A stretch of 14,201 nt of DNA from Candidatus Zhuqueibacterota bacterium (lineage in GTDB: Bacteria > SM23-31). Location: positions 1 to 14,201 of the forward strand of contig JADFON010000010.1 of assembly GCA_022562855.1 (NCBI GenBank). The letters are read 5' to 3'. Of this stretch, positions 3,107-13,401 are shown one piece after another (position 1 is the stretch's first letter; every line of letters starts with the position of its first letter). Made by a program: the position numbers and the translations under genes. Under the pieces are notes generated by a model. It ran no database searches and was not told the origin of the DNA. It worked only from the letters and a program-made list of their open reading frames with translations.

Positions 3107-4790
3107 TTACTTCCCTCTTTCAAAAACTACCTTCCCGTTGAAGACGGTTATGTCTGCTTGTGTTTCGAGGATTTCTTCTGCGGGGATGGTCATGATGTCT
3201 TTCGACAGGACAACGAGGTCGGCAAATTTTCCGGGCGTGATCGAACCGAGAACGTCTTCTTCAAAACCCATATAGGCGGCGTCAAGCGTGTAACTTTTGA
3301 GCGCTTCTAAGCGTGTCAACCGTTGTTCGGGATACCATCCGCCTTCTGGGCTGCCTTCGCTGTTCTGCCGGGTCACTGCTGCATGGATACCCATAAACGG
3401 GCTGAATCTCCGTCTTCCTTCATCCGACCCGCCGACAATGCGGACACCTTCGTTTAAGAATGTCCTCCACGCATACCCGCCTTTTATCCTTTCCGGACCG
3501 ATGCGTCTTTCTGCCCAGGGCATATCGAGTGTTGCATGGATCCACTGGAACGAGGCGATCAAACCAAGTTCGGCAAACCGGGGGATGTCCTCAATGGCTA
3601 CGATCTGCGCATGTTCCACCCGCATCCTGTGGTCGCTGACCTGGACTTCCGCCAACGCTTTTTCGACAGCGTCGAGGACGATCCTGTTGCCCCTGTCGCC
3701 TATCGAATGCAGGGCGGCTGTGAAACCGTTTTCGAGGCACGCTATTAACACGCCGTAGACATTTTCCGGTGTAACGCGTATCACACCGATCGCCGGGTTC
3801 ATCGCTGTATGGTTCGAGTAACGCCGCGCCGCGTGCTCCAAGCGCTCCGTCGATGGACATTTTTACTCCCCGCGCGGTCAGGCGGTGGTTTCCTTCGGCT
3901 ATTACCGGACCGGCTGAAATAAAATCGTCGAGAATTTCACCCGTTTCCCATATCCGTATATATCCGTTTATCCTGAAATCGAACTCCCCCGCTTCTATCA
4001 ATTCCCGGTATGCATTTATTGTTGTCACGCTTGTTCCCATGTCGTGTGCGCCTGTGAAACCATACGAGTGTGGCAGTGCAACTGACTTTTTGATTTGTTC
4101 GGTCAGGGGTTCGCGCTGTCCCGCCGGGATAACAGCACGGACTATCCTCTGCGCATTTTCGATCAGGATCCCGGTCGGTTCCCCTGTTTCGGTATCGCGT
4201 TGTATGACCCCGTCGGACGGGTCGGCTCTATCGCGTGTAATTCCGGCAAGTTCGAGCGCTTTGCTGTTCATCCAGCTTGCGTGGCTGTGCATCCCGACAA
4301 ATGAAACGGGATTGTCCGGGGCAACCTCATCCAACGCCTCTTTTGTGGGCCAGACTTTGGTCACCCAGTTTTCGTAGTGCCATCCGCGTCCGGTGAGCCA
4401 TTCACCCGCAGGCAGGGCGTCGACCCGCCGTTTTATCAATGCAAGCGCTTCCTCGATACTGCGCGTGTCGTCAAGTTCCACGATACGGCTTACGTCGGAA
4501 CCGAGCCCGGCAAAGTGCAAATGCCCGTCGACAAGTCCCGGCACCACGGTCCTGCCGAGAAGGTTAATTGTTATAGTATTCTCCCCTTTGAGGGCGTTTA
4601 TTTCTTCATTACTGCCTACCGCCAGTATCTTCTCCCCTTTAATAGCGACCGCCTGTGCTTCGGGCTGATATTCATCGACGGTCACGATCTTACCGTTGAC
4701 GAGTATCAGGTCTGCGGTGTCCACAGTACCGCAGCCTATTGTTAGTGCACAGAGCATTAGTATGCTCATCACGCCTGCATATATTTTCAT
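3107..4790 (-). pseudogene. YtcJ-type amidohydrolase lipoprotein, interrupted by one frameshift
   Basis: Two overlapping minus-strand frames form one amidohydrolase (Amidohydro_3, YtcJ-like) of about 560 residues. The 5' part has a lipoprotein signal (hydrophobic stretch ending LTIGC), then the metal-site HLH in LVDGHLHF, and runs in frame to YSDEPGD. The reading then continues in the next frame as GVIRVTPENVYG, with the remaining expected ligand motifs LHSIGDRGN, RVEHAQ and GGSDEG, and ends in NGKVVFERGK. Restoring one base near 3787-3793 gives DEPGDRGVIRVTPENVY, as expected for the family. No other damage is seen, so a very recent mutation or a sequencing error is likely. The start ATG at 4790 has a strong site (GGGGAGG, 7 nt away). 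The product would be an envelope-anchored hydrolase of an N-acyl, amide or cyclic substrate; the substrate is unknown. Confidence 0.85.
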
Positions 4791-5048: not shown

Positions 5049-5786
5049 TTAAATGGGCGCTTCTTCCGCATAAAATTGTTTTTCAATGACATCCTGAATT
5101 TTTTTTACAAGAGCGTTGCGGCTGGCAAAGTCGTATTCCGAGGTATCCACAGGTTTACCGATATAAATGTGAACATGTCCGGAATTTATTGTAAAAGAGT
5201 TTTTTGGCATTATTTTGTTGCTGCCCTTGATGGTGACCGGGACAATCTGTCTTCCGGAATTAATCGCCATGACAAATCCACCCTTTTTAAACGGGTGAAT
5301 TTTACCATCGGGAGAACGGGTTCCTTCCGCGTAGACCAGCGGCGAAATATTTTCTTTTTTCAATCTTTCCGCAGCTCGGTCAAGACTTTCTATAGCCTTT
5401 TCGCGGTTTTGCCTGTCGATTCTTATTACGCCCCCTGCCCATATAGCCCATCCAAAAAACGGAACCCGAAACAGTTCTTTTTTAGCAAGCATCCTGATAC
5501 TTGAAGGAATAGACGCGATACATACCGGAATGTCCATCGTGGACTGATGATTGGAAATAAACACATAGGACGTTTCGGGATCGATGTTGTCCACGCCTTC
5601 AACCGTTACTTTTATCCCACAGGTGAAAAGAACTAACCTCGCCCAGAAACGGGCTAATACATCGACAAGCCTGCCCCTTCCGAGAACCGGTACCAGCAAT
5701 ATGACCAGTATCGAGATCACTATCGTATAACCAGCGCCCAATACGACGAAAATTGCAGAACGAATATTTTGATAAATTTCTGTCAC
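5049..5786 (-). CDS. plsC: 1-acyl(alkyl)-glycerol-3-phosphate acyltransferase (PlsC family)
   Basis: 245 residues, typical length for PlsC/AGPAT. One N-terminal membrane segment (about 11-35) is followed by the acyltransferase domain. This has the catalytic HX4D as NHQSTMD (His80, Asp85), IRIDRQNR (121-128, the substrate-arginine region), EGTRS (154-158) and the late motif VPVTIKG. It transfers an acyl chain to sn-2 of a lysophosphatidate-type acceptor at the inner face of the membrane. As last gene of the ether-lipid operon it would make 1-alkyl-2-acyl-glycerol-3-phosphate. Ordinary phosphatidate synthesis is the alternative, and the two are not exclusive. It lies 76 bp after the SDR gene, the widest gap in the operon. 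The start is GTG with no clear Shine-Dalgarno; no in-frame ATG lies between it and an upstream stop. Confidence 0.85.
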   Translation of the reverse strand: MTEIYQNIRSAIFVVLGAGYTIVISILVILLVPVLGRGRLVDVLARFWARLVLFTCGIKVTVEGVDNIDPETSYVFISNHQSTMDIPVCIASIPSSIRMLAKKELFRVPFFGWAIWAGGVIRIDRQNREKAIESLDRAAERLKKENISPLVYAEGTRSPDGKIHPFKKGGFVMAINSGRQIVPVTIKGSNKIMPKNSFTINSGHVHIYIGKPVDTSEYDFASRNALVKKIQDVIEKQFYAEEAPI

Positions 5787-5828
5787 GAAACAATTACTTT
5801 GAAATCTCTATTAACAATTATTTTGATT

Positions 5829-5849
5829 AACCGGGGAAAAACACCGGTT
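5829..5849. other. Short hairpin in the SDR-plsC gap
   Basis: AACCGG (5829-5834) pairs with CCGGTT (5844-5849) across a 9-nt loop in the only sizeable gap of the operon. No T-run follows on the minus strand. It could be an RNA-processing or partial attenuation site, or chance. Confidence 0.3.
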
Positions 5850-5862
5850 TATTTCGTGGTTT

Positions 5863-6669
5863 TTATTTCCCCTGTTCACCTGTTTTTTTATTGATGATCC
5901 ATTCCAGTAATCCGGGACTGATCATGTTCAACCAGGGAAGGAGTTTGAGCTTTGGAGGAATTACGAGTTCTTTTTTACGTTTCTGCATTGCCTTGATAAT
6001 CTTTCTGCAGCATTCCTCTACGGTTATCGATTCACCCGTGTGTTTTTGCCTCGAATCTCCAAGGGTGCTGCCGTCTTTTCCGAAAGCGTTACTCCGCAAA
6101 TTCGTCCCCCTTATCCAGTGAGGAAGAACCATGAGAATATCGACGCCGGAACCGTCAAGTTCCATTCGAAGCGATTGAAAAAATCCCTGCAAAGCGAACT
6201 TCGAAGCGACATAACCGGTATGGTAAGGAACTCCGATTTTCCCCTGTATCGATGATATAACGACCATCATTCCCCTGTTTGCCTTGAGCATGGGAAGAGC
6301 ATAATAGAGGCAGTGAACGACTCCAAGATAATTAATATCCATCATTTTACGGTAGATATTGACATCTTTAATATCTTCGAATTTCGCCCACATACTGATC
6401 CCGGCGCACGCTACAACGTAATCCAGCGACCCGAATTTTGCACCGGCTTTTTTTACAAATTTTTCACAGTCTTCCGGGCGGGTTACGTCGCCTCCTTCTG
6501 TCAAAGTTTCGCTTCCAAGTTCACGGCACTGTTTACCGGTCTCCTCGAGTTTTTCCAGGTCTTTGTCAAATAGGGCAAGTTTAGCCCCTTTCCGGGCAAA
6601 CTCCAGCGACAACGATTTGCCGAGTCCCGACGAAGCACCTGTTATAATAATACTTTTACCGGTAAACAT
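5863..6669 (-). CDS. Short-chain dehydrogenase, probable acyl/alkyl-DHAP reductase (DHRS7B/Ayr1-like)
   Basis: 268 residues, classical SDR. Cofactor motif TGASSGLG (10-17), ACAG (87-90) where most relatives have NNAG, structural Asn113, and the triad Ser140, Tyr153 (YVASK), Lys157. The stretch SSIQGKIGVP (139-148), FFQSLRMEL, then TNLRSNAFGKDGS strongly recalls human DHRS7B (PexRAP), which has SSIQGK and a TNL..NA...DGS motif after the catalytic tyrosine. DHRS7B and yeast Ayr1 reduce acyl/alkyl-dihydroxyacetone phosphate to the glycerol-3-phosphate form with NADPH, the step right after alkyl-DHAP synthase. The C-terminus (SPGLLEWIINKK) could be a membrane-touching helix. The ATG immediately follows the TAG stop of the AGPS gene, so translation is probably coupled. 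The SDR fold is certain; the substrate is inferred from similarity plus context. Confidence 0.85.
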   Translation of the reverse strand: MFTGKSIIITGASSGLGKSLSLEFARKGAKLALFDKDLEKLEETGKQCRELGSETLTEGGDVTRPEDCEKFVKKAGAKFGSLDYVVACAGISMWAKFEDIKDVNIYRKMMDINYLGVVHCLYYALPMLKANRGMMVVISSIQGKIGVPYHTGYVASKFALQGFFQSLRMELDGSGVDILMVLPHWIRGTNLRSNAFGKDGSTLGDSRQKHTGESITVEECCRKIIKAMQKRKKELVIPPKLKLLPWLNMISPGLLEWIINKKTGEQGK

Positions 6670-8409
6670 CTATTTGTTGTTCTGTTCAAACTGCTTAATT
6701 TTTTCTTCAGGAAGTCCCCATCCGCTAAAGGGGTCTTTCGGCGGGATAATTTTGCCCGGATTCATTACTCCGTTCGGGTCCAGTCCTGATTTCAGGGCTT
6801 TTACGGCTTTTACACCGGTAGATGAAATGTCTTCTTCCAACCAGGGCAAATGTTCATAACCAACCGCATGATGGTGAGATAAAGTGGCGCCATTTTTTAT
6901 AAACGAATCTTCGACTGTTTTTTTCACATAGAGATATTCATCAAGTTCTCTTCCCGGTGTTTCGGTAAATCCGAACGTAAAATAAAGGCTTGCCCCGGAG
7001 TGATACGTATGGCTTATGTGACAGCCGAGAAACGGTTTGTTCCCGGTATTTTTTATAGCCTTCTCCAGTGATTCGAGTGTCGCGTAATACAGAGGGAGCA
7101 GCTTACTCCATACTGTTGTGGTTTCGCTGACATCTGCAACGATACCCCGCTCCATTGCATAATCCCGCAAATACGGAAAATCATATTTACTCCGCTCAAA
7201 TGACCTGCCGGGATCTGTTCCAAGATTTATCGCGCCAAATTTTTTGTATATGGCGTTTACCTTCTTTTTGTGTTCCCTGAATTTCTTTTTATCACCTTCA
7301 AAAGCCGCTATCATGAGGCATAATTTGTCGGAATCGAACCTCTTTACGTGTTTTATGTAAGCTTTTACTAATTTAGAGAGGAACGGTTTGATGCCGGTGG
7401 ATTTCGTTTTATATGCGAACGAAAGCGCAGTTTTTCCCGGGTCGCTGAGCCTGGTGATCATAGGAGGGCATTCTTTTTCGACGCACATGTTTACCGCTTT
7501 GACGCCGCTTTCAAAATCGGGGAACAAATAACCGTAGAAATCCCTGCATTCCGGGCGTCGGTGCACTTGCATCGTAGCTTCTGTTATTACTCCAAGAATC
7601 CCTTCACTTCCGATGCAAATATGGTTTATGTCTACCCCGTTCGATGATTTCGGAACTGTTCTCGTGACGATAGTCCCGGCAGGAGTGACCATACGGAGAG
7701 CGAGTACCATGTCCTCGATCTTTCCGTATTTATCACTCTGCATCCCGGCAGACCGTGTAGCTATCCATCCTCCCAGTGACGAATATTCAAATGAATCGGG
7801 AAAATGACCCAGCGTCATTCCGGCTGCGTTCAACTGTTCTTCCATATGCGGACCCATCACGCCCGCCTGGATACGCGCGGTACACGACTCGTCATCCACG
7901 CTGAGCACTTTATCCATCCGTTTCATATCGAGAGAAACTACCATTCGCCCGTTGTGTCCTTTTGCTTCAAGACATCCGGCGATGTTCGATCCACCGCCGA
8001 ACGGAATAATTATTACATTGAATTCCGAGGCGGCTTTTACAATTGAAGAGACATCATCCTCGGTTTCAGCATAAATTACACAGTCCGGCGCCGCATCGAC
8101 AATACCGCGTCTTATACGCCACAGGTCTCTAAAGCTTTTGCCGTAAGCATGGATTATCCTGTCTTTTTTGTCTGTATTGACCTGGTCTTCCCTGAGAACG
8201 GATTTTACAACTTCTGAAAATCGCGGATTGATATTCGGTTCGGATAACGCTATCTGTTCAAGGTCTACGGGCGGAATTATCTTTGGCTCCTCGGTTATCC
8301 CGAGAATTTTTTTCATGTAAGGCCAGAGTTCAGGTTTGCTTTCGATATCGAATTCGGTACCTTCAGCTCCCCATCCCCACCACTTCATTTGCGCGACGTT
8401 TTTTTTCAA
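6670..8409 (-). CDS. agps: Alkyl-dihydroxyacetonephosphate synthase (alkylglycerone-phosphate synthase), FAD-dependent
   Basis: 579 residues. It makes the ether bond by exchanging the acyl chain of 1-acyl-DHAP for a fatty alcohol. FAD is used without net redox. Visible motifs: N-terminal KWWGWG, FAD-binding PFGGGSNIAG (136-145), DSFEYSSLGGWIATRSAGM (205-223, much like human PDSLEFSTVGGW), GSEGILGVITEATM (267-280), Arg320 (the position of the human disease residue Arg419), TYHSGASLYF with the conserved Tyr469, and SHHHAVG (His512-514) of the active site. Together these separate AGPS from D-lactate or glycolate oxidases of the same superfamily. No peroxisomal signal is present, as expected. The frame opens with TTG at 8409, which has AGGGA 5 nt upstream and overlaps the previous gene by 47 bp. 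ATG at 8388 (MKWWGWG) has no ribosome site but matches where homologues usually start. Confidence 0.93.
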   Translation of the reverse strand: MKKNVAQMKWWGWGAEGTEFDIESKPELWPYMKKILGITEEPKIIPPVDLEQIALSEPNINPRFSEVVKSVLREDQVNTDKKDRIIHAYGKSFRDLWRIRRGIVDAAPDCVIYAETEDDVSSIVKAASEFNVIIIPFGGGSNIAGCLEAKGHNGRMVVSLDMKRMDKVLSVDDESCTARIQAGVMGPHMEEQLNAAGMTLGHFPDSFEYSSLGGWIATRSAGMQSDKYGKIEDMVLALRMVTPAGTIVTRTVPKSSNGVDINHICIGSEGILGVITEATMQVHRRPECRDFYGYLFPDFESGVKAVNMCVEKECPPMITRLSDPGKTALSFAYKTKSTGIKPFLSKLVKAYIKHVKRFDSDKLCLMIAAFEGDKKKFREHKKKVNAIYKKFGAINLGTDPGRSFERSKYDFPYLRDYAMERGIVADVSETTTVWSKLLPLYYATLESLEKAIKNTGNKPFLGCHISHTYHSGASLYFTFGFTETPGRELDEYLYVKKTVEDSFIKNGATLSHHHAVGYEHLPWLEEDISSTGVKAVKALKSGLDPNGVMNPGKIIPPKDPFSGWGLPEEKIKQFEQNNK

Positions 8410-9148
8410 TGATTTCCCTGTCTTTCAGCTTATGAATTCTTTTTTCAAGTTCTTTTGTCACTTTAGCATACGACCTAAAGTTTTTAGTTGTGCTTTCTTC
8501 GCCATTACTTAAATATTCCCCGGGGTGAATAGGTTCCCCGATAAAAATTTGGAGTTTGACCGGTTTCATGAGGTTCCTGCCCTTCGGCATTGCTTTGTAA
8601 GTACCATCGATATATGCCGGCAGAATCGGAATGCCAAGTTCGACTGAAACGATTGAAAGACCTCTTTTGAACGGCTGCAAATCACCCGTTTTTGAACGGG
8701 TGCCTTCCGGGTAAATAATCAAACATCTCTTGTCTTTATTGACAAATTCCCTGCATGCAACAAGATACTCGGTTATGGTTTTACGGTTCGATTTCCTGTC
8801 AACCGGTATGAGGTTCATCAGAATATTGAGAAAGAACTTTCGTATCTTGTTTTCAAAAAAATAGTCCTTTGCGGCAATCATTGCAAAGTTCTTAAAACCT
8901 TTGCCGGATGCCGTCATCAATACGCCGCTGTCCATATGGCTGTTATGGTTACTGCAGAAAATAAAAGGTGAATCGGGAATATTTTCCTTTCCATAGATAG
9001 TCAACGGACAGTAAAGCGAAAACAAAACCTTGCAATACAATTCGAACAATTTCTTTCCGAACCTGCCGAGTAACGTCTGGTCTGCAGTGATATGGGAGTA
9101 TTCCGGCGCCAGCTCGGTATTCTCAAGCGCCGACCGGAAGGTGCTCAT
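8363..9148 (-). CDS. PlsC-family acyltransferase, probable DHAP acyltransferase of the ether-lipid operon
   Basis: 261 residues. HX4D motif in SNHNSHMD (His68, Asp73), LIPVDRKSNR (113-122), YPEGTRS (146-152), and PILPAYIDGTYKAMPKG at 174-190. There is no clear long N-terminal membrane helix, only an amphipathic region (about 26-50). A charged helix lies near the C-terminus. It differs clearly from the other PlsC in this operon, so it is not a recent duplicate. Its place just before alkyl-DHAP synthase suggests it makes acyl-DHAP, the AGPS substrate. In animals that step is done by GNPAT, from another branch of the LPLAT superfamily, so this assignment is inference. The ATG directly follows the TAA of the upstream gene, with GGGAG 7 nt away inside that gene, and its 3' end overlaps the AGPS start. 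Confidence 0.85.
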   Translation of the reverse strand: MSTFRSALENTELAPEYSHITADQTLLGRFGKKLFELYCKVLFSLYCPLTIYGKENIPDSPFIFCSNHNSHMDSGVLMTASGKGFKNFAMIAAKDYFFENKIRKFFLNILMNLIPVDRKSNRKTITEYLVACREFVNKDKRCLIIYPEGTRSKTGDLQPFKRGLSIVSVELGIPILPAYIDGTYKAMPKGRNLMKPVKLQIFIGEPIHPGEYLSNGEESTTKNFRSYAKVTKELEKRIHKLKDREIIEKKRRANEVVGMGS

Positions 9149-10303
9149 TTATTGTCTCCCGTAATTTGCGTGCGAAATTGCGAATTCATCGCTTGCAATG
9201 GCACCACCAAGCGATAGTTCGAGAGCCATAGCGCATGCACAAATGATCTCAGCCAGTTTTTTGGATGAGTTTTTTCCGGTACAGCCCATCAATTTCAGGT
9301 TGTTTTTCTGTTGTTTCAACCGTGTTCCCCCGCCAACCGTTCCGACACTGATGGAAGGCATGGTAAGATTGACATAAAGATCATCGTCGTTCCGCACCTC
9401 ATAACTCATGATACCAAGCGCGTTTTCCGCAACACATGCCGCATCCTGACCCGTTGCGAGGTAGATTGCGGTAAGCGCATTAGCCACGTGCTTATTCGAA
9501 CCGACTACACCCGCCATTTGCGAACCGCAGTTTGCCTGTATCCATCCATCGGCAAATTCACGCGCAGACGCTCTGAACATTCTCGTCAATATCTTGTTCT
9601 TTACGAAAGCGCTTGCAATAACCTGGTGGCTTCTGCCGATAAGCAGTGTCTTATAAGCCGGATTCTTGTCGCCGCTGAAATTACTCTCAAGATAATAGCG
9701 GTAACCGCTTGAATCCTCAAATTTTTCTTTGATATATTTGCACGCAATGTACGTAGCGATCGTTACCATATTTTGACCGGCAGCTTCTCCCGTATCGTAA
9801 AGAAAATCGAGTATAATGCTATTTTGACTGGGATATTTATCGATTCTGAGGAGCTTTCCATGCTTTGTCGTTGATTCTGCGGCGCTTTTTATCTCATCGT
9901 AATGGTCTTCGATCCAATTCACAAACATCTTCGTTTTATCTATATCGTCAAAGATAAAGATAGGGCTGCGTGATATTTCCTGTTTAATGTGGACTGTTTT
10001 TATTCCCCCCGACAGGTACATAGCGAAAAGTCCCCGCGTCATGGACAAAGTCAGCGTCCCTTCCAATGTACACAATGGCACATAAAAGATGCCGTCGGCG
10101 TAGGTTCCGTGTATGAGAAGAGGTCCCGTTACCGACATCGGAATCCGGACATACCCTACGTGATTCTCTATTATTCCCTTTAATTCATCCGGTTCTTCGG
10201 GAACTCCGTCCAGAAACTGATATCCCGTTTTTTCTTTCAGCCATTCTCTTCTTTTTGCAGTATTCGACTTTTTGAAGCCTCCCGGTGGTCTTACTCGAAG
10301 CAT
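9149..10303 (-). CDS. Class I-like HMG-CoA reductase homologue, divergent; possible acyl-thioester reductase
   Basis: 384 residues, equal to the catalytic domain of class I HMG-CoA reductase with no membrane domain. Landmarks: ENHVGYVRIP (47-56), TGPLLI, the catalytic Glu81 in TLEGTL, Arg112, GEAAGQNM (172-179; human GDAMGMNM), catalytic Lys213 in GDKNPAY, Asn270, ATGQDAA with Asp287, TMPSISVGTVGGG (314-326) and His378 in ISHANYGR. All four catalytic residues of a four-electron thioester-to-alcohol reductase are therefore present. By eye alignment to the human cis-loop SGNYCTDKK, Ser684 becomes Glu206 and Lys692 becomes Asn214, two residues that contact the HMG carboxylate. Substrate is thus uncertain: HMG-CoA, or a fatty acyl thioester giving the alcohol needed by AGPS. 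First gene of the operon; ATG with AGGA 7 nt upstream. Confidence 0.87.
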   Translation of the reverse strand: MLRVRPPGGFKKSNTAKRREWLKEKTGYQFLDGVPEEPDELKGIIENHVGYVRIPMSVTGPLLIHGTYADGIFYVPLCTLEGTLTLSMTRGLFAMYLSGGIKTVHIKQEISRSPIFIFDDIDKTKMFVNWIEDHYDEIKSAAESTTKHGKLLRIDKYPSQNSIILDFLYDTGEAAGQNMVTIATYIACKYIKEKFEDSSGYRYYLESNFSGDKNPAYKTLLIGRSHQVIASAFVKNKILTRMFRASAREFADGWIQANCGSQMAGVVGSNKHVANALTAIYLATGQDAACVAENALGIMSYEVRNDDDLYVNLTMPSISVGTVGGGTRLKQQKNNLKLMGCTGKNSSKKLAEIICACAMALELSLGGAIASDEFAISHANYGRQ

Positions 10304-10678
10304 AAATGTTTCCTATATATTTTTTGAAATTTTACCGTGACAAATTTGCGGAGGTCATCGCATGTTTAATTTTCACAACTGCGGTACATCTTATATCTCA
10401 ATGTAGCGATCATTCTTAAATGTGGCTAATGTACATATCGCATAAAGCATATTAAAATACCTTAACGCCGCCAAAAAGTCAATATATTTTTGGCTGTAAA
10501 CATTTTAACAAACTGTTTTCCGGTCAAAGGAACTATCGTAATCTAATACCGGTTTAAAATAATATAATCATCCTAAAAAAATATTATTATTAATGAATAA
10601 TTTGATTTTTTATCGGTATGTTATCAATAAGCGGGTCAACTTCAATACAAATATATCAATTCGATTAAAGGATACTCT
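10304..10678. promoter_or_regulatory. Divergent intergenic region expected to hold two promoters
   Basis: 375 bp, very AT-rich, between the ether-lipid operon (leftward) and the TonB-like gene (rightward); both transcripts must start here. The rightward gene has AAGGA (10668-10672) 6 nt before its ATG. I cannot point to a convincing -35/-10 pair on either strand, and I see no operator, riboswitch or terminator. A TTGTCA/TATATA pair on the minus strand was rejected because it sits too close to the start codon. Confidence 0.5.
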
Positions 10679-11305
10679 ATGCGTCCTCTATACTATGTAA
10701 CCGGAAAAATCAAAAGTGTTCGTATTAAATCATATAAAGCTGCTGTAGCGGCTTCGGTTATACTGCACGCGATTTTTATAACCGCTTTGAGTTTTTTCGG
10801 AGCAGGTACATCCGATACGATCAATGTAGAAAATTCGGTTTATGAGGAAGATATAACGACAAAAGAATATGAAGTCTCGTATGTGAACCTCGAATCTGAA
10901 AACACAGAATCTTCTGCGCTTTCTGCTGCGCCAGCGCAGCCTTCTGTGGAAATTCAAGGTGAAGAACCAAGCCCAATGGAGCTTATTACATACAGGACAG
11001 AAACAACCGTTCTCACCAGCGCAACGGGTAAACCAAGAGGGTATATCAACGGTGCGGTTGTAGAAAATGTTGAGGTCACTTTCGCTTATCTTGTAGTTGA
11101 AGCCCCGCCCCCGCCGCCCGCAGAAGAGGAAAAAGATCTTTTTTACTATCTAATGGGAGGCAGCCAAAGTGGAGCCGGTTCGAGTAGATCGGGATATGGC
11201 GGTGGAGTTGGAAGCATCGCGATTGGAGACGGAATGGGAGGCTCATGCCCCAGTCCGAACATCATCAATATCAATAGAAGAAAACCGGTAAGAGGCAAAA
11301 ATTGA
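10679..11305 (+). CDS. TonB-like N-terminal anchor protein without a TonB C-terminal domain
   Basis: 208 residues. A basic N-terminus is followed by one membrane helix (about 21-42, AAVAASVILHAIFITALSF), whose pattern of small residues and a histidine resembles the anchor of TonB/TolA/AgmX proteins. The rest would be periplasmic: an acidic Ser/Glu region (50-100), a segment 101-140, a proline cluster PPPPP (143-147), a glycine/serine-rich stretch (160-189) with SRSGYGGGVGSIAIGDG, one Cys190, and a short basic tail. A TonB box-binding C-terminal domain is absent, so it is either a truncated TonB-family protein or an envelope protein that only shares the anchor. The ATG has a strong AAGGA site. 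It is monocistronic, with its own terminator at 11341. Confidence 0.65.
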   Translation: MRPLYYVTGKIKSVRIKSYKAAVAASVILHAIFITALSFFGAGTSDTINVENSVYEEDITTKEYEVSYVNLESENTESSALSAAPAQPSVEIQGEEPSPMELITYRTETTVLTSATGKPRGYINGAVVENVEVTFAYLVVEAPPPPPAEEEKDLFYYLMGGSQSGAGSSRSGYGGGVGSIAIGDGMGGSCPSPNIININRRKPVRGKN

Positions 11306-11340
11306 TAAAAATCCTGTAGATAAATAAACAAATAAATTGC

Positions 11341-11376
11341 AAGCCCCATCCCACGCTTCGGGACGGGGCTTTTTTT
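11341..11376 (+). terminator. Rho-independent terminator
   Basis: AAGCCCCATCCC (11341-11352) pairs with GGGACGGGGCTT (11360-11371) with one A-C mismatch and a 7-nt loop, followed by a run of T to 11376. It ends the TonB-like gene, 35 bp after its stop. Confidence 0.92.
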
Positions 11377-11460
11377 ATGCCTAAAATTCTAATGAAATTC
11401 AGTATTTCAACTTACAAGCAGTACTTTTGTATTTTAGCACTTGCCGGATGACACTTCAAT

Positions 11461-11640
11461 ACCGATCCCGCTAAGCGGGACGGGCTTAGAAAAAGTGATT
11501 CAATGCAAGATTGTGACACCCCCAAAAACAGGGACACGTAGTGACAGGCCCCAAATGAAGGAGCAGATAGGCTAAGTTCAGCATGACGCTTACTGGTACG
11601 GTCATTCCGAACAAATAATCTTTCTCTTTTATAACAGAGT
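11461..11640. repeat. Degenerate intergenic repeat, copy C
   Basis: It contains the palindrome TCCCGC-TAA-GCGGGA, the same design as CCCGC-AGA-GCGGG in copy B. It also has TTCAGCATGACG and a GTCATTCCGAAC block followed by AATCTTTCTCTTTT. The end of the window (14171-14201) carries a related piece ending CGGAATCTTTT. It has no coding potential. Confidence 0.5.
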
Positions 11641-11795
11641 AACTTGTTTTGGAATCTCTTTTAAAAAAATACAAAAGTCTTGTAAGTAGTTGTTTTATAT
11701 TCCAATGATTCTCATATTAACCGTGTCAGCATTTGCTTCATAGAAATACCTTTTCCAGAATTCAGTGTTGTCGTTGTTTTGGCAACCTAATGCCC

Positions 11796-12179: not shown

Positions 12180-12326
12180 TTATTCTCTCGGGAGAACAAC
12201 ATAAAAAATCGAACCAACACCAACTTCTGATTCAAAGTAGAATTTGCCCCTATGTTTTTCGATGATAATTTTACACTCAAATAATCCAAGCCCTGTACCA
12301 TCTGCTTTCGTCGTAAATGTCGTATC
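12180..12326 (-). pseudogene. Second histidine kinase C-terminal remnant, opposite strand
   Basis: Minus-strand reading DTTFTTKADGTGLGL, then IIIEKHRGKFYFESEV and GSIFYVVLP: the F-box/G2-box end of a HATPase_c domain (family form PFFTTK..GTGLGL...I.E.HGG). The frame is open up to 12431, but residues before the motif are hydrophobic and unlike a kinase. It differs from the remnant at 11796 (GTGLGL versus GEGMGM), so it came from another kinase. Confidence 0.68.
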
Positions 12327-12504
12327 CTGCTTTATAATAAAATTGCATTTACAGAGCTTTATTGTTATAATAAAACAAATCAATGACAGATGCTTAATTA
12401 AAATGTACTTTTGTATATGATAGAACTTCAACAGGGTTAAGAATCATCAACAGTTAACAGAAGAACGTTAAACTACGCTAATAATTTTCGATAGGAGAAT
12501 CACC

Positions 12505-13401
12505 ATGCGTCTTATAACGAGGGGAGATGCCGATGGTTTGGCATGTGCTGTTTTCATTACGATAACAGAAAAAATTGAATCTATCATATTTGCACATCCA
12601 AAAGATATGCAAGATGGTAAGGTAGAAGTTTTACAGAATGATATTATCTGCAATTTGCCATATCACCCTGATTGTTATTTGTGGTTTGACCACCATATAT
12701 CAGAAGAAACCCGGAACGAAAAGGTTAAGGTTGGAAAATTTAAAGGAAAATTCGGGTTAGCTCCCAGTACTGCCCGATTGGTCTATGAATACTATAATGA
12801 CATTAACTTAAAAAAATACGAAGATTTTTTATCGGCTGTAGATAAATTGGATAGCGCACAATTGGATAAAAGTGATGTAATAGACCCCAAAGGGTGGATG
12901 TTGTTGATGATAAGCCTCGATCCCAGGACGTCACTCGGGGATTTTGAATTTTATTTCTCCGAATTGGTCGATTGGATCAAAAAAGATTCTTTTGAGGAGA
13001 TTATGAAACAGCCGGAGGTGCAACTTCGGTGTGATTATGTTTTGTCGGAATTAGACGAATTTAAAAAAGCTCTGTTAAAATATACGACTTTGGAAAACAA
13101 TGTGATCGTGATAGACTTTCGTGATCTGGAATTGATCCCAATGGGTAACCGGTTTTATGAATATATACTTTTCCCGGAGAGGAATATCTCGATAAGATTA
13201 TTTTGGGGGAAAGACAAGCATAATATAATATGCGCTGTAGGACATTCAATTTTTAAGCGGGATTCTAAAACAAATATTGGGTTACTCCTTAAAAAATATG
13301 GTGGAGGCGGTCTTCGCGGAGCAGGTACATGCCAACTCGACCCGGAAACGGCGGATAAACAAATTTCTGAAATAATAGAGCAAATAAAACAAGATGGTTA
13401 A
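12505..13401 (+). CDS. DHH-family phosphoesterase
   Basis: 298 residues. The N-terminal DHH domain has RGDADGLACA (6-15, metal-binding Asp8 and Asp10), HPKDMQDGK (31-39), the signature FDHH (61-64) and VDKLDSA (112-118). The C-terminal DHHA1-like substrate domain ends with GGGGLRGAGTCQ (266-277). DHH proteins are Mn-dependent phosphodiesterases or phosphatases (RecJ, NrnA/oligoribonucleases, cyclic dinucleotide and polyphosphate hydrolases). This subtype is often annotated as exopolyphosphatase-like, but the substrate is not settled. The DHHA1 motif normally reads GGGH; here His is Leu270, which may alter substrate binding. It has a strong start (AGGAG 7 nt before the ATG). The stop overlaps the next ATG (TAATG). 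Confidence 0.85.
   Translation: MRLITRGDADGLACAVFITITEKIESIIFAHPKDMQDGKVEVLQNDIICNLPYHPDCYLWFDHHISEETRNEKVKVGKFKGKFGLAPSTARLVYEYYNDINLKKYEDFLSAVDKLDSAQLDKSDVIDPKGWMLLMISLDPRTSLGDFEFYFSELVDWIKKDSFEEIMKQPEVQLRCDYVLSELDEFKKALLKYTTLENNVIVIDFRDLELIPMGNRFYEYILFPERNISIRLFWGKDKHNIICAVGHSIFKRDSKTNIGLLLKKYGGGGLRGAGTCQLDPETADKQISEIIEQIKQDG

Follow-up and report, generated by a model that had tools for sequence, protein, structure and literature searches.

In Myxococcus xanthus the operon MXAN_1676-MXAN_1674 encodes AGPS (MXAN_1676), a fusion of a fatty-alcohol-forming reductase (FAR) with an acyltransferase, and a protein of the epimerase/dehydratase family, and it gives a small share of the ether lipids of this organism, ElbD being the main route (PMC9131029). 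FcrA, a fatty acyl-CoA reductase derived from HMG-CoA reductase (HMGR), was published in 2025 by Grossi et al.; it was characterised in Natronomonas pharaonis and Candidatus Promineifilum breve and tied to wax esters, while a role in feeding ether lipids was only suggested, the AGPS gene of Ca. Promineifilum breve lying nine genes away (PMC11948995). AGPS homologues have also been surveyed in metagenome-assembled genomes (MAGs) from the Black Sea, without the context of an FcrA operon (PMC11868695). Here we analyze a compact operon on a 14,201-nucleotide stretch of the Candidatus Zhuqueibacterota contig JADFON010000010.1 (the window), in which an HMGR homologue, most likely of the FcrA type, is the first gene and AGPS the third. 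From its sequence the operon is likely to encode a self-contained pathway for alkyl-ether glycerolipids, and very probably makes ether-bonded membrane lipids by the chemistry of the animal peroxisome. No description of an FcrA-AGPS operon was found in the literature searched, most subscription journals being outside that search. The five genes are, in transcription order:

9149-10303, minus strand: HMGR-like gene, 384 aa (HMG-CoA_red PF00368, E 2.7e-103, 346 bits)
8363-9148, minus strand: acyltransferase PlsC-1, 261 aa (Acyltransferase PF01553, E 3.9e-23)
6670-8409, minus strand: AGPS, 579 aa counted from a TTG start (FAD_binding_4 and FAD-oxidase_C, each about 1e-37)
5863-6669, minus strand: short-chain dehydrogenase (SDR), 268 aa (adh_short PF00106, E 7.7e-46)
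5049-5786, minus strand: acyltransferase PlsC-2, 245 aa with a GTG start (Acyltransferase PF01553, E 2.7e-32)

The Pfam matches thus read HMG-CoA reductase, acyltransferase, FAD_binding_4 with FAD-oxidase_C, short-chain dehydrogenase, acyltransferase, and they bear out the families named in the initial annotation (HMGR homologue, PlsC, AGPS, SDR, PlsC). The open reading frame positions likewise agree with its five minus-strand genes and their junctions, which are 0 bp between the HMGR-like gene and PlsC-1, an overlap between PlsC-1 and AGPS, 0 bp between AGPS and the SDR, and 76 bp between the SDR and PlsC-2. The overlap amounts to 47 bp when counted from the TTG at 8409 and to 26 bp from the ATG at 8388; the true AGPS start may be this ATG, which opens a conserved MKWWGWG stretch corresponding to MKWNGWG in guinea-pig AGPS. 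Promoter and terminator scans gave no more signals than shuffled sequence.

In the proposed pathway FcrA would reduce a fatty acyl-CoA with two NADPH to a fatty alcohol, and PlsC-1 would convert dihydroxyacetone phosphate (DHAP) to 1-acyl-DHAP. An enzyme of the FcrA type should accept acyl-CoA of C14 or longer with NADPH and leave HMG-CoA unreduced. AGPS would replace the acyl group by this alcohol to give 1-alkyl-DHAP, the SDR would reduce the ketone to 1-alkyl-glycerol 3-phosphate (1-alkyl-G3P), and acylation of the sn-2 position by PlsC-2 would yield 1-alkyl-2-acyl-G3P (alkyl phosphatidic acid), which would enter normal phospholipid synthesis. The steps from DHAP onwards had been proposed in the initial annotation, and both the placement of AGPS and the conserved gene set described below support them; what FcrA, the SDR and both acyltransferases act on is predicted, and so is the production of ether lipids. 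The HMGR homologue was present as annotated, with its role then left unassigned. With it read as FcrA, no step would be missing between the starting compounds, fatty acyl-CoA and DHAP, and the ether-lipid precursor.

The assignment of the third gene as AGPS is solid. In a phmmer search against PDB the window protein matched Dictyostelium AGPS (2uuu) with an E value of 3.4e-140 (472 bits) and guinea-pig AGPS with 3e-100 (340 bits), and the next match after the AGPS enzymes was a putative oxidoreductase, a non-AGPS flavoprotein, at 98 bits. Its identity with Dictyostelium AGPS is 42%, above the 32% shared by the Dictyostelium and guinea-pig enzymes. Arg419, Arg515, Tyr578 and His615-617 (guinea-pig numbering), which we take from established structure work to be the active-site residues of the guinea-pig enzyme, are all identical in the window protein. 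The AGPS trees were built without the M. xanthus protein MXAN_1676; in these the window AGPS, its bacterial cassette relatives and two eukaryotic AGPS were on one side of a branch with 99/100 support, and the branch holding them was present in 200/200 bootstrap trees of the 40-row tree. When E. coli GlcD and further FAD oxidases served as outgroup, all AGPS stood apart from GlcD, with a root too weak to tell a clade from a grade for the group of ether and eukaryote AGPS. Homologues from Nannocystis and Polyangiaceae, mostly linked to GlpD, sit in another group. The AGPS call, made originally from several motifs, is borne out by the PDB scores, the active-site residues and the tree placement, and the clustering with non-AGPS FAD oxidases that had been named as a danger to it does not occur in the trees.

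Scanning with an AGPS alignment, at one genome per species, returned 80 AGPS-like loci. The FcrA-like gene, PlsC and AGPS were found in the same order and on the same strand in five other genomes, with 43-71% identity to the window proteins:

L051, Caldithrix sp. MAG (Calditrichota): FcrA-like, PlsC and AGPS at 63, 56 and 71% identity; SDR next
L052, marine MAG (unclassified): 59, 48 and 62%; SDR next
L053, Verrucomicrobiales MAG: 55, 46 and 59%; SDR next
L054, Verrucomicrobiia MAG: 57, 49 and 58%; SDR next, then a PlsC as fifth gene
L057, Planctomycetota MAG: 60, 43 and 54%

Because order and strand recur in these five genomes the gene set is not due to chance, and a few-base overlap between PlsC and AGPS is present in all five. 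The conservation of the set, on which the initial annotation had laid weight, holds for the first three genes in five genomes and for the SDR also in four. Gene identities, catalytic residues, clade placement and gene order can all be read directly from these data. The operon copy in the Caldithrix MAG is flanked by proteins that by eye resemble a PIN-domain protein (888-1280) and a reverse transcriptase (7839-8858), which would fit a mobile setting. Three Acidobacteriota loci carry PlsC and AGPS without FcrA or SDR, adjacent in L055 and L058 and 1.2 kb apart in L056; a 959-aa protein preceding PlsC-AGPS was considered there as a reductase and ruled out, being a phosphoenolpyruvate carboxylase. 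In a Chlamydiae MAG (L062) SDR-AGPS is accompanied, at a distance of 1.7 kb and on the opposite strand, by an FcrA from another FcrA subclade; FcrA may therefore have joined AGPS more than once.

In three further loci of the same AGPS clade FcrA is absent and a classical FAR (PF07993) is present:

L059, Fluviispira multicolorata: FAR, PlsC and SDR within 6.5 kb of AGPS
L061, Elusimicrobia MAG, 8703-11702, minus strand: a 999-aa fusion of FAR (PF07993), PlsC and SDR adjoining AGPS
L143, linear plasmid of Streptomyces sp. NBC_01450, 3462-10656: FAR-HAD fusion, SDR, PlsC and AGPS, in an almost unannotated record

Reductase, PlsC, SDR and AGPS thus recur together as a set of four parts in which FcrA and FAR fill one slot, FAR standing here in place of FcrA. 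An FcrA or FAR gene within 10 kb of AGPS occurred at 8 of the 13 loci of the window's AGPS clade against 0 of 67 others (Fisher 4e-8), and GlpD was nearby in 51 of those 67 (Fisher 2e-7), the Fisher values serving as guides only, as the loci are related and not independent. The second AGPS-like group (L064-L130, with Mycobacterium, Nocardia, Chloroflexi, Myxococcota and others) retains the active-site residues almost throughout and lies by GlpD in these 51 loci, not by a fatty acyl reductase.

The reading of the HMGR homologue as an FcrA-type reductase that supplies the fatty alcohol for AGPS is most likely on account of its residues, its pocket changes, its side of the tree and the failure to find an HMG-CoA synthase in the genome. 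FcrA keeps Glu559, Lys691, Asp767 and His866 of HMGR, and has Ser684 changed to Glu, a pocket Lys changed to a small residue and Leu862 to a bulky one (PMC11948995); the pocket residue is the Lys of human NINKNLVG, printed as Lys795 in that paper. In the window protein the equivalents of the four catalytic residues are kept and all three changes are present, as Ser684 to Glu, pocket Lys to Ala and Leu862 to Phe (human numbering). A loss of the catalytic Lys, considered from the DAMGMN region, was ruled out, this residue being in the DKK motif, where it is kept. At the three diagnostic positions homologues in two other genomes that bear a Lad domain and are linked to WS/DGAT read Glu, Ala and Trp, and mevalonate HMGRs (human, plant, Methanothermococcus and two bacterial, the latter adjoining a mevalonate-kinase-like gene or isopentenyl diphosphate (IPP) isomerase) read Ser, Lys and Leu. 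In the HMGR-family tree, where the Lad-bearing WS/DGAT-linked relatives stand in for the characterised FcrA sequences, the mevalonate HMGRs were split from the non-mevalonate set that includes the window protein (100/99), and the six operon proteins united at 100/100. The Lad-bearing proteins on the window protein's side adjoin WS/DGAT (L045, L046), which requires a fatty alcohol, as does the AGPS reaction. One genome (G087) holds three HMGR-family genes (L045, L046 and L013), one by WS/DGAT (FcrA-like), one by a ketosynthase-like gene and a possible acyl carrier protein, and one by a mevalonate-kinase-like gene (a true HMGR), and lends itself naturally to a comparison of the subfamilies.

The link between FcrA and WS/DGAT, seen in other bacteria (PMC11948995) and at L045 and L046, lends some weight to the idea that ether lipids are made here but that the HMGR-like protein, with one of the PlsC, works in the synthesis of wax esters or other neutral lipids, the alcohol for AGPS coming from elsewhere. 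We consider this improbable, since FAR, not WS/DGAT, replaces FcrA in the related AGPS clusters. WS/DGAT was not found in the window's own genome, which carries little weight as the search was silent in control genomes too, and the only FAR-like genes there were two weak and short PF07993 matches of SDR type, in a search likewise of little weight because it gave matches in every control genome.

A true mevalonate-pathway HMGR that merely precedes an ether-lipid cluster, perhaps for isoprenoid alcohols, is very improbable, even though the PF00368 match of 346 bits and the conserved Glu, Lys, Asp and His would fit it. HMG-CoA synthase was found neither in the own genome, which is 80% complete, nor in its class relatives, and at least one of DXR and GcpE was present in all five class relatives (DXR in 4/5, GcpE in 3/5); neither was found in the own 80%-complete genome. 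The protein scores 280.7 bits, far below the cut-off of 441.8 of the NADPH HMGR equivalog, the positions binding the HMG carboxylate are changed, including Ser684 to Glu, it groups away from the bacterial HMGRs whose genes neighbour IPP isomerase or a mevalonate-kinase-like gene, and in five genomes, from several phyla, it likewise comes first in the cassette. On these searches, the pocket residues and the tree the mevalonate role was rejected.

That the third gene encodes an FAD-linked oxidase of another kind, acting on glycolate, D-lactate or 2-hydroxyacids, in an operon unrelated to ether lipids is hardly credible and a GlcD-type identity was ruled out, for although its best named NCBIfam model is GlcD (165 bits, far under the cut-off of 567.9), the solved AGPS relatives exceed all others about fivefold in bits, the active-site Arg, Tyr and His triplet is kept, and the gene falls outside the GlcD-type group in the rooted tree.

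Several observations weigh against an FcrA-AGPS pathway as proposed. The operon FcrA group is on a long branch (1.02), and its members alone have Asn for Lys692 and Glu for Asp653; these proteins may thus act on another substrate than the characterised FcrA does. The N-terminal Lad domain (PF25653) was not found in the 384-aa protein by Pfam scan; this domain occurs in certain FcrA only and its absence does not exclude FcrA (PMC11948995). Two Verrucomicrobia members have a Lys at or next to the position where FcrA has lost it, depending on gap placement. HMGR-family and AGPS genes co-occur in genomes no more than by chance (2/385 genomes, p 0.36), because both families serve other roles, and such co-occurrence was dropped as support. 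AGPS of the operon type was not found in five sampled class relatives and the neighbours outside the cassette vary between genomes, which together suggest horizontal spread of the cassette; the contig may also be mis-binned. The genome being only 80% complete, the absences reported above are weak.

The two acyltransferases and the SDR complete the predicted pathway. As annotated, both acyltransferases have HX4D (NHNSHMD in PlsC-1, NHQSTMD in PlsC-2) and EGTRS. Against TIGR00530 (1-acylglycerol-3-phosphate O-acyltransferase, cut-off 102.95) PlsC-2 scores above the cut-off with 120.4 and PlsC-1 below it with 73.9, and PlsC-1 adjoins AGPS in all FcrA cassettes (L051-L054, L057). From these scores and the retention of PlsC-1 beside AGPS we infer that PlsC-1 would be the DHAP acyltransferase and PlsC-2 the sn-2 acyltransferase. 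A PlsC at the place of PlsC-2 was seen only in L054 among the compared cassettes, at 27% identity. The SDR, proposed as the alkyl/acyl-DHAP reductase, contains the TGxxxGxG and S-YxxxK motifs and directly follows AGPS in L051-L054 (45-53% identity). The DHRS7B-like character originally given to it stood as far as the SDR family is concerned (PF00106 and motifs); a specific kinship with DHRS7B is at most putative, the nearest solved relative being 11-beta-HSD1 (E 1.6e-29) and the best NCBIfam model the general PRK06181 (294 bits). PlsY is encoded elsewhere in the genome, hence ordinary ester phospholipid synthesis would be separate and the operon would add to this route.

Elsewhere in the window an amidohydrolase gene (PF07969) at 3107-4790 on the minus strand is frameshifted into two overlapping frames (3591-4790, profile 2-254; 3107-3841, profile 254-472) and is either a broken gene or an assembly error. 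At 12180-12431 on the minus strand a short stretch matches part (profile 66-109) of PF02518, the ATPase domain of histidine kinases, and is probably a gene remnant. On the plus strand, 12505-13401 encodes a 298-aa protein that by eye is DHH-type phosphoesterase-like (DADG and DHH-like motifs) and had no Pfam or NCBIfam match, and 415-660 encodes a short protein in which a peptide of the GTGQDSNQ type, rich in Gln, Asn and Ser, is repeated.

With FcrA as the first gene of a compact AGPS operon in six genomes, the suggested link to ether lipids becomes directly testable, and many bacterial "HMG-CoA reductase" annotations are likely to denote fatty-alcohol enzymes. The five genes form a portable set that should convert acyl-CoA and DHAP to alkyl phosphatidic acid, and they may be used for predicting ether-lipid makers among uncultured bacteria and for asking about the origin of the eukaryotic pathway. 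A descent of the peroxisomal pathway from a bacterial cassette of acyl-CoA reductase, PlsC, AGPS and SDR, with the reductase slot in one bacterial lineage taken by a dedicated HMGR subfamily and not by FAR, is a speculative and rather unlikely scenario.

Compared with the systems described so far, the operon is a variant of the Myxococcus AGPS operons, which use an FAR. In both, the AGPS gene shares an operon with genes for an acyltransferase, for a reductase that forms fatty alcohol and for a protein resembling NAD-dependent reductases. For M. xanthus the FAR domain is the proposed source of the alcohol, whereas the window has an HMGR-family FcrA, a separate acyltransferase, an SDR as the third component and, for the sn-2 position, an additional PlsC; neither an FAR-domain reductase nor an epimerase/dehydratase is encoded in the operon, FcrA and the SDR being there instead. 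The likeness to the myxobacterial and eukaryotic AGPS route that had been noted at the outset is upheld by the grouping with eukaryotic AGPS and by the kind of operon found in M. xanthus, while the Nannocystis and Polyangiaceae homologues group separately. With the characterised FcrA the window protein shares the HMGR fold family, the catalytic residues, the pocket changes and the non-mevalonate clade; it differs in lacking Lad, which those may possess, and in belonging to an AGPS operon instead of being tied to wax esters. The initial annotation had also set the operon apart from two other bacterial ways to ether lipids, the PlsA/PlsR route of anaerobes and the glycerol ester reductase (Ger) route, and by Pfam its five genes include no member of either family; both of these routes reduce an existing ester. 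The reactions proposed here are those of the peroxisomal proteins FAR1, GNPAT, AGPS and DHRS7B/PexRAP, and the window AGPS lies on the side of the Dictyostelium and guinea-pig enzymes, while the operon, with its genes in a single unit, would use FcrA for FAR1, a PlsC-type acyltransferase for GNPAT and a generic SDR.

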